From NCBI GenBank assembly GCA_039802005.1, contig JBDRVV010000023.1, positions 1 to 45,619 of the forward strand: a stretch of DNA of 45,619 bases. The letters run 5' to 3'. This document shows, piece by piece, positions 22,763 through 23,810 of the stretch. The translations under genes and the position numbers were made by a program. Position 1 is the first letter of the stretch. Each line of letters starts with the position of its first letter. A model generated the notes under the pieces. The model worked only from the letters and a program-made list of their open reading frames with translations, ran no database searches and was not told where the DNA came from. Source of the stretch: a candidate division WOR-3 bacterium. Lineage in GTDB: Bacteria; Hydrothermota; Tepidihabitantia; SM23-42; JAOAFX01.

Positions 22763-22790
22763 TTGACAAAATAGAGATTTTGGATATAAT
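22763..22790 (+). promoter_or_regulatory. Consensus promoter of the ilv/leu leader
   Basis: TTGACA at 22763-22768, a 16-nt spacer, TATAAT at 22785-22790, both exact. The ATG of the leader peptide follows after 6 nt (GCTACC), so transcription is predicted to begin at the start codon. Confidence 0.85.
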
Positions 22791-22796
22791 GCTACC

Positions 22797-22886
22797 ATGA
22801 AAAAATATATTTCAAATAATTTCAGCAAAAATAGTTTGTTAGTTATCCTTATAGCCATCAGGAGGCTGGGCCTTATGTCAGCCTGA
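22797..22886 (+). CDS. Branched-chain amino-acid leader peptide (attenuator)
   Basis: A 29-codon leader peptide. Residues 14-21 read LLVILIAI, seven branched-chain codons out of eight, a run typical of ilv/leu attenuator peptides. The stop (22884-22886) lies in the first RNA stem, as expected where ribosome position chooses between antiterminator and terminator. There is no SD, but the start sits 6 nt after a consensus -10, so it is probably translated from a leaderless transcript. Its sequence shows no other domain. It regulates whatever once lay downstream; only remnants remain there. Confidence 0.85.
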   Translation: MKKYISNNFSKNSLLVILIAIRRLGLMSA

Positions 22887-22936
22887 TTTATTTATTGGAG
22901 CGATAAGGCCCACCAGAACCGGTGGGCTTTTTTTTT
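22863..22936 (+). terminator. Transcription attenuator 1 (Leu/Ile/Val controlled)
   Basis: Three mutually exclusive stems are visible. Stem 1:2 pairs AGGCTG (22863-22868) with CAGCCT (22879-22884). The antiterminator 2:3 pairs GGGCCTTAT (22868-22876) with ATAAGGCCC (22903-22911), nine perfect pairs. The terminator 3:4 pairs GCCCACC (22908-22914) with GGTGGGC (22921-22927) and is followed by nine T's. Control codons lie at 22836-22859. Confidence 0.9.
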
Positions 22937-22964
22937 AAATAAAAATGAATGAAAGGAGGTTACA

Positions 22965-23243
22965 ATGAATAATGAAGAAAAAGAAATGGAAGACAGGTTC
23001 ACACCCGAAGGGGTACCTGTCACCACGCCTATGGGTATTGAGATGAACAGAATCTTTAACCAGCCGTCTCAGAACACATACCCTAATAGTAAAACAAAGA
23101 AAAGAGGTGTGAGAACTAAAAATAGCAAACATCCTTTAAATAAAACAACCACCAAAATGGAGAATACAATTACCAATGAGATAACACAATCATTATCCGT
23201 CGTTATTATACTTATCCTACTTGGGGGTCTTTCATGGCTCTAA
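22965..23243 (+). CDS. 92-codon ORF ending in a second Leu/Ile/Val leader segment
   Basis: Starts after a strong AAAGGAGGT (22951-22959). Residues 1-65 are hydrophilic and match nothing I know; this may be the surviving start of a lost structural gene or simply a long leader. Residues 78-89 read SVVIILILLGGL, a branched-chain run, and the stop lies 22 bases before a second attenuator terminator. A shorter peptide from the internal ATG at 23157 is possible, but that ATG has neither an SD nor a promoter. The run also looks like a membrane helix, so a small membrane protein is the alternative reading. The RNA architecture downstream favours the leader function. Confidence 0.6.
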   Translation: MNNEEKEMEDRFTPEGVPVTTPMGIEMNRIFNQPSQNTYPNSKTKKRGVRTKNSKHPLNKTTTKMENTITNEITQSLSVVIILILLGGLSWL

Positions 23244-23295
23244 ACGTGTATAGAGTTCAGCGAAAGACCCACCATAAAAGGTGGGTCTTTTTTTT
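23225..23295 (+). terminator. Transcription attenuator 2
   Basis: The antiterminator pairs GGGTCTTTC (23225-23233, inside the ORF) with GAAAGACCC (23262-23270). The terminator pairs GACCCACC (23266-23273) with GGTGGGTC (23280-23287), followed by eight T's. An extra stem CTCTA/TAGAG (23238-23255) lies between. The plan is the same as attenuator 1, including shared CCCACC/GGTGGG arms, suggesting duplication. Confidence 0.88.
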
Positions 23296-23342
23296 GAACA
23301 ATCATCCCGGTAATTAGCCGAATAAGAAAGGAGGTGTAGTTA

Positions 23343-23810
23343 ATGAAAGAAGACGTCAGAGACCGATGGCATGGGTAAGGTAACGGTATATCTAAAAGCG
23401 TACGGGATGACTGTAACCGGTCGGGTGTGCATACCGATATTGTCGTTGCAAGTACCAGGGCTAATGTTGATACCTTGAATAAGTTAATATTTTCCATTGG
23501 TATGTTGCCTTCGGCAAGCGTTGGGAAAAATTCAGGACTATTTGAACCAGTGCACGGAAGTGCCCCGGGTATTGCCGGCAGGAATATCGCTAATCCCTGT
23601 GGAATAATCCTTTCCCTCGCCCTCTTATTCAGATATTCTTTAAATGAAACTCACATTGCCAAAGCAATTGAAAATGCAGTCAGCAATGTGCTTGAGAAAG
23701 GCTACCGAACTAAAGACCTTGCGGAAAAAGGTTCAAAAATATTGAGCACATCCGCTATGGAAGATTACATAAACAATGAATTGAAGAAAATACTTACCAA
23801 TAAATCCTGA
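23343..23810 (+). pseudogene. leuB: 3-isopropylmalate dehydrogenase remnant (leuB, C-terminal third)
   Basis: After attenuator 2 a strong AAAGGAGGTG leads to an ATG at 23343, but this frame stops after 11 codons (23376-23378). The same frame reopens and, from about 23490 to the stop at 23810, gives about 105 residues that match the C-terminus of Leu[30 protein letters not shown], an 'LLFRYSL' helix and '[12 protein letters not shown]…STSAMEDYI'. The first ~230 residues of the enzyme, including the substrate-binding arginines and catalytic Tyr/Lys, are absent. A GTG at 23427 could start a short product, but it would be inactive. It reads as a deletion remnant of a leu operon. Its end overlaps the convergent lipoprotein gene by 17 bp. 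Confidence 0.82.

Follow-up and report, generated by a model that had tools for sequence, protein, structure and literature searches.

Classical branched-chain attenuators have been described upstream of ilvB1NC in M. tuberculosis (PMC13236596) and of ilvBNC in C. glutamicum (PMC11857589), and the latter has also been discussed as leaderless (PMC11857589). Leader peptides without an untranslated 5' region are known from leuL, ilvL and trpL of S. lividans (PMC8079986) and from trpL of S. meliloti (PMC7298713); LeuL1 of S. lividans lacks a typical Rho-independent terminator (PMC8079986). Tandem attenuators precede mgtCBR in Salmonella, which a 2012 paper called a singular example (PMC3641672).

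The locus described here lies in the genome of a candidate division WOR-3 bacterium, on a contig stretch of 45,619 nucleotides that is called the window below. Like the classical systems it has branched-chain leader codons and mutually exclusive antiterminator and terminator stems, arranged so that a ribosome at the stop codon would favour the terminator, but its first attenuator precedes a gene for a small protein rather than ilv or leu genes, and the second overlaps the 3' end of that gene. As in the S. lividans and S. meliloti leaders, the first peptide is predicted to have its start codon at the very 5' end of the RNA and no Shine-Dalgarno sequence; unlike LeuL1 of S. lividans, it is followed, as is the second leader, by a clear intrinsic terminator, and the lineage is also a different one. 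With Salmonella mgtCBR (PMC3641672) the locus shares two leader ORFs in series before one operon, but the Salmonella ORFs sense different signals (ATP and proline), whereas here branched-chain codons occur in both ORFs, the second of which forms the end of a conserved small-protein gene. The Rfam families Phe_leader, Thr_leader, Trp_leader and Termite-leu are likewise leader RNAs of amino-acid operons; all four scored far under their gathering cut-offs, and no Rfam leader, T-box or riboswitch family matched at gathering cut-off within the window (the best weak score was Phe_leader, 26.1 against 55 bits). We consider it likely that the locus is a ribosome-mediated transcription attenuator with two stages, both responding to branched-chain amino acids, in which stage 1 would lead to the small protein and stage 2 to a former leuACDB operon (Table 1).

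Table 1. Features of the tandem attenuator locus, in window coordinates, and loci of the parallel Lys attenuators.
Feature	Position	Strand	Basis or detail
Sigma-70-type promoter, TTGACA-16-TATAAT	22763..22790	+	12/12 consensus matches; -35 TTGACA at 22763-22768, 16-nt spacer, -10 TATAAT at 22785-22790; kept in G001
Leaderless leader peptide 1, MKKYISNNFSKNSLLVILIAIRRLGLMSA	22797..22886	+	ATG 6 nt past -10; stop codon 22884-22886
Antiterminator 1	22867..22912	+	arms 22867-22876 (region 2, close to the leader ORF end) and 22903-22912 (region 3)
Terminator 1 with nine T	22905..22936	+	stem 22905-22930, then T9
Shine-Dalgarno AGGAGG of small-protein gene	22954..22959	+	sequence
Small-protein gene (ORF2), 92 aa	22965..23243	+	G001 alignment; homologues in G004, G016, G018, G024
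Antiterminator 2	23225..23270	+	arms 23225-23233 and 23262-23270; conserved in G001
Terminator 2 with eight T	23262..23295	+	conserved in G001
leuA relic	23343..23482	+	start-codon region joined to frameshifted 3' fragment 23357-23482 (126 nt)
leuB relic, roughly the final third of isopropylmalate dehydrogenase	23492..23810	+	Pfam Iso_dh 1.1e-32
Lys attenuator	L228 ~1853-2000
Lys attenuator	L229 ~6089	-
Lys attenuator	L018 ~6878	-

A preliminary description of this DNA, made from its letters alone, had proposed two tandem branched-chain attenuators with a leaderless first leader, and the proposal held up: control codons and stems are conserved in a second species of the genus (G001), and four more genomes have related leaders. 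The consensus promoter that it named matches sigma-70 at every position, and the 29-codon peptide containing LLVILIAI begins where it was said to begin. The spacing between the -10 element and the ATG is the same in this genome (G000) and in G001 and fits the expected start of transcription. Retained in G001 are the leader 1 core VILIA(I/L)RRLGLM and both control-codon runs, LLVILIAI in leader 1 and VVIILILL at the end of ORF2. In the roughly 440 kb of this genome that were scanned, window included, leader 1 was the sole leader of its kind. A decayed copy of leader 1, MVRFTLNIISLILILVIVILLRRLGSMLPW, was seen elsewhere in the genome at L282:1487-1608 (G000:C10:12901). Over 107 nt it is about 67% identical to leader 1 of G001; it lacks a clear -35 element and has a terminator of only -7.5 kcal/mol.

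The leaderless start predicted for leader 1 stood as described, and such starts are common in the lineage. The pattern TTGACN{17,18}TATNNTN{5,8}ATG matched 195 times in this genome versus 7 times for the reversed control; each of the other members of the order gave about 110-210 matches versus 0-7 for the control. In a sample of about 440 kb (20 stretches of this genome plus the window), 44 of 113 promoter-like sites had an ATG 5-8 nt past the -10, with about 2 per position further out. Judged by these patterns, leaderless initiation appears to be a common start mode in the order and not special to leader 1. Some families of the same phylum gave almost no matches to the pattern. The three members of the genus that were examined all have, in addition, a leaderless Lys attenuator upstream of lysA, with leader peptides MMKNFKRYWMKKVMKGRGFSFP (G000), MMKLFKRFWMKKGYKGVGLLFP (G001) and VMRLFRRYWMKKVHKGVGFSSP (G002) and the terminator core GCCCACC/GGTGGGC shared with leader 1. 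No comparable attenuator came from a relaxed scan of the LysA and trp loci of other genera and of the his/trp/aro cluster of this genome; one extra match of that scan (L230) was weak, had a poor terminator and was set aside.

Folding bore out the alternative stems, which had been claimed as a 2:3 / 3:4 switch ending in nine T's for attenuator 1 and proposed for comparison in both switches. In attenuator 1 the antiterminator folds at -19.2 kcal/mol (2 of 500 dinucleotide shuffles as good) and the terminator at -16.9 kcal/mol (0 of 300); in attenuator 2 the values are -20.6 kcal/mol (0 of 500) and -19.7 kcal/mol (0 of 300). In both switches the antiterminator 2:3 and the intrinsic terminator 3:4 are mutually exclusive. 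Region 2 begins 16-18 nt ahead of the stop codon in 8 of the 8 Leu and Lys leaders measured, and would therefore be covered by a terminating ribosome and left free by one stalled early in the control run; this argument uses the size of the ribosome footprint. Across genomes CCCACC/GGTGGG in the terminator core is replaced by CCCGCC/GGCGGG in G004 and by CCCATC/GATGGG in G018; G024 has GGGTC/GACCC in place of the antiterminator core GGGCC/GGCCC, and one antiterminator C-G pair of the Lys leaders is T-A in G001. These compensatory changes were picked out by eye in the folds rather than counted against a control. G000 and G001, the two species with the tandem arrangement, have identical stems in it, which are hence without covariation. 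It is very improbable that these are ordinary terminators beside chance hydrophobic ORFs, with no sensing of amino acids: membrane proteins do commonly have runs of hydrophobic codons, but the arrangement recurs before the same gene or leuA in six genomes, a parallel Lys type stands before lysA, and 2:3 arms complementary to the terminator arm recur at fixed spacing.

The second switch of the preliminary description is present and lies at 23225-23295, but the ORF that carries it is a 92-codon frame led by a Shine-Dalgarno sequence rather than a short leader beginning near 23157. An internal start at 23157 was rejected, as the Met is absent in G001. This second "leader ORF", which carries SVVIILILLGGL and ends in SLSVVIILILLGGLSWL, is predicted to encode a conserved small protein. 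Its conserved core, EDRFTPEGVPVTTP at 22989-23030, has the motif D-x-F-T-x-E-G-x-x-x-T-x-P, and its C-terminal VVIILILL, at 23199-23222, doubles as the control codons of attenuator 2. With a profile built from ORF2 of G000 and G001, small ORFs were also detected in G004, G018, G024 and G016 (E 5e-5 to 0.0085). Only these six genomes matched a profile of the 26-residue core (E <= 3e-14, next 0.004), and the identical six matched a leader profile (E <= 1.1e-6, next 0.08); both profiles were built from those six genomes, so that these matches are by construction, and the informative part is that neither leader nor core was found without the other. The G004 row of the 26-residue core alignment was padded with two hand-typed residues, which leaves the alignment of the six full-length translations unaffected. 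Searches of the small protein against Pfam, NCBIfam and PHROGs gave nothing above chance, and an AlphaFold2 model of ORF2 had a mean pLDDT of 58 and no usable fold.

ORF2 could instead be a second, long leader, its conserved N-terminus acting as a nascent-chain or RNA signal and not as part of an independent protein. The second control run at its C-terminus in G000 and G001 is what one would expect of such a leader, but the hydrophobic C-terminus is missing from its relatives in G004, G016, G018 and G024, and the small gene of G018 is on its own, with a convergent gene after it. Synonymous differences exceed non-synonymous ones among the core codons in 15 of 15 pairs, which also speaks for a protein, though the core was chosen for its conservation and the count is biased accordingly. 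We regard the long leader as improbable and treat ORF2 as a small-protein gene.

What stage 2 once preceded can be seen in G001, where a complete leuA-leuC-leuD-leuB operon follows the same promoter and, in unchanged order, both leaders and both switches. By alignment coordinates the window has two deletions relative to G001, of about 1.35 kb and about 2.6 kb. The remaining piece of leuA is 84% identical, with a 1-nt gap, to the 3' part of G001 leuA, and that of leuB covers positions 248-347 of 348 of the Iso_dh profile and is 74% identical to G001 leuB. At the start of the leuA relic, a run of 22 nt (23337-23358) also occurs, without mismatch, in an rpsO-like gene of G061, which is probably a coincidence. 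LeuA was not found elsewhere in this genome, a draft of 62 contigs estimated to be 97.6% complete; among the 147 genomes of the phylum that were searched it was found in 5, and most of the order lacks it. That the organism has an intact operon and the assembly has lost it is very unlikely: the draft is in 62 pieces, but an assembly error would have to explain two distinct junctions and the frameshift in what is left of leuA, together with the missing LeuA match in a nearly complete genome and the lack of LeuA in most of the order. The deletion is therefore taken as real, and the second switch is probably a relic in this genome because the leu genes downstream of it are deleted.

IlvC (PF01450) is absent from the genomes of G000, G001 and G004, and a full branched-chain pathway was dropped as context for the locus. 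This makes the pathway setting unusual, which weighs somewhat against the two-stage reading. Because G001 and G004 lack IlvC although they have leuACDB, the 2-oxoisovalerate for their leucine would have to come from elsewhere, such as from valine.

The leader was also looked for before leu genes in relatives, as the preliminary description had suggested, and was found before leuA in G001, with both switches, and in G004, a member of another family of the order, with one. The single Leu-type attenuator of G004 has different stem letters and the same geometry, and its small gene lies between leuD and leuB. In G016, G018 and G024, which belong to other genera and in which LeuA was not found, the small gene is directly preceded by a sigma-70-type promoter, a terminator and, between them, a branched-chain leader whose start lies 8-9 nt past the -10. 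These three loci were found via the small protein, with no use of the upstream leader sequence in that search. Many matches of a first DNA search were merely similar promoters or unrelated coding stretches. G018 and G024 share a common locus of uppP, an S9 peptidase and a flavodoxin-like gene followed by a threonine-dehydrogenase-like gene (names from reading translations, not from a family search), and the gene listed next in G018 is convergent, which leaves the small gene as the sole possible target of the attenuator in that genome. Downstream of the attenuator are the leu operon in G001 and G004, of leu genes only fragments in this genome, and the small-protein gene in G016, G018 and G024. 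The tandem arrangement is known from two species only, and stage 2, which might have arisen by duplication of attenuator 1 or of the Lys cassette, was seen only in this genus; stage 1 with the small protein appears to be the wider unit, because it is found without leu genes in other genera.

These comparisons also bear on whether both attenuators and the small ORF are functionless leftovers of the lost leu operon. The deletion of leuACDB, the frameshift in the leuA fragment and the decayed copy at L282, a sign that such leaders do decay, all point that way, but the promoter is perfect, terminator 1 and the small ORF are intact, and leader, terminator and small gene are kept together in the three other genera without LeuA. 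We think it rather unlikely for the locus as a whole and more likely for attenuator 2 alone. Our preferred reading is that attenuator 1 most likely controls the small protein, because leader and terminator directly precede it in three LeuA-less genera, and that attenuator 2, in the 3' end of that gene, most likely controlled leuACDB.

We infer a mechanism from the anatomy of the locus, its geometry and the few compensatory stem changes. In stage 1, transcription would start at or near the ATG, and a ribosome would load on the bare 5' end and translate leader 1. With ample charged Leu, Ile and Val tRNAs it would reach the stop codon and cover region 2, so that the terminator 3:4 forms; with charged tRNA short it would stall in LLVILIAI, 2:3 would form, and the polymerase would continue into the small-protein gene, which would be translated from its Shine-Dalgarno sequence. 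In stage 2 the last codons, VVIILILL, and the second terminator would repeat the amino-acid test before leuACDB. In this genome stage 2 would now precede fragments only, and stage 1 could still switch the small protein. The promoter, the ORFs, the alternative stems, their conservation, the link to the small protein and the deletion are read directly from sequence; start of transcription, stalling and read-through, like the expression and function of the small protein, are predicted steps of this scheme. The control codons span Leu, Ile and Val and do not by themselves fix the exact signal.

Amino-acid attenuators are usually seen as switches for making, importing or charging the amino acid concerned. 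The attenuators described here are a variant of this known type, and the small-protein target is the new part. We give about equal weight for and against the proposal that an undescribed small-protein family is the dedicated target of a leaderless branched-chain attenuator in LeuA-less bacteria, acting in a response to branched-chain starvation such as uptake, peptide breakdown or amino-acid fermentation. As a target kept in four LeuA-less genomes and without relatives in the searched libraries, the protein may offer a direct entry to an unstudied starvation response. The tandem layout, with attenuator 2 inside the 3' end of a gene, suggests a way in which a biosynthetic operon can become coupled to a gene that is otherwise regulated on its own, and the lineage is a candidate for attenuation built on leaderless translation as a normal mode of starting.
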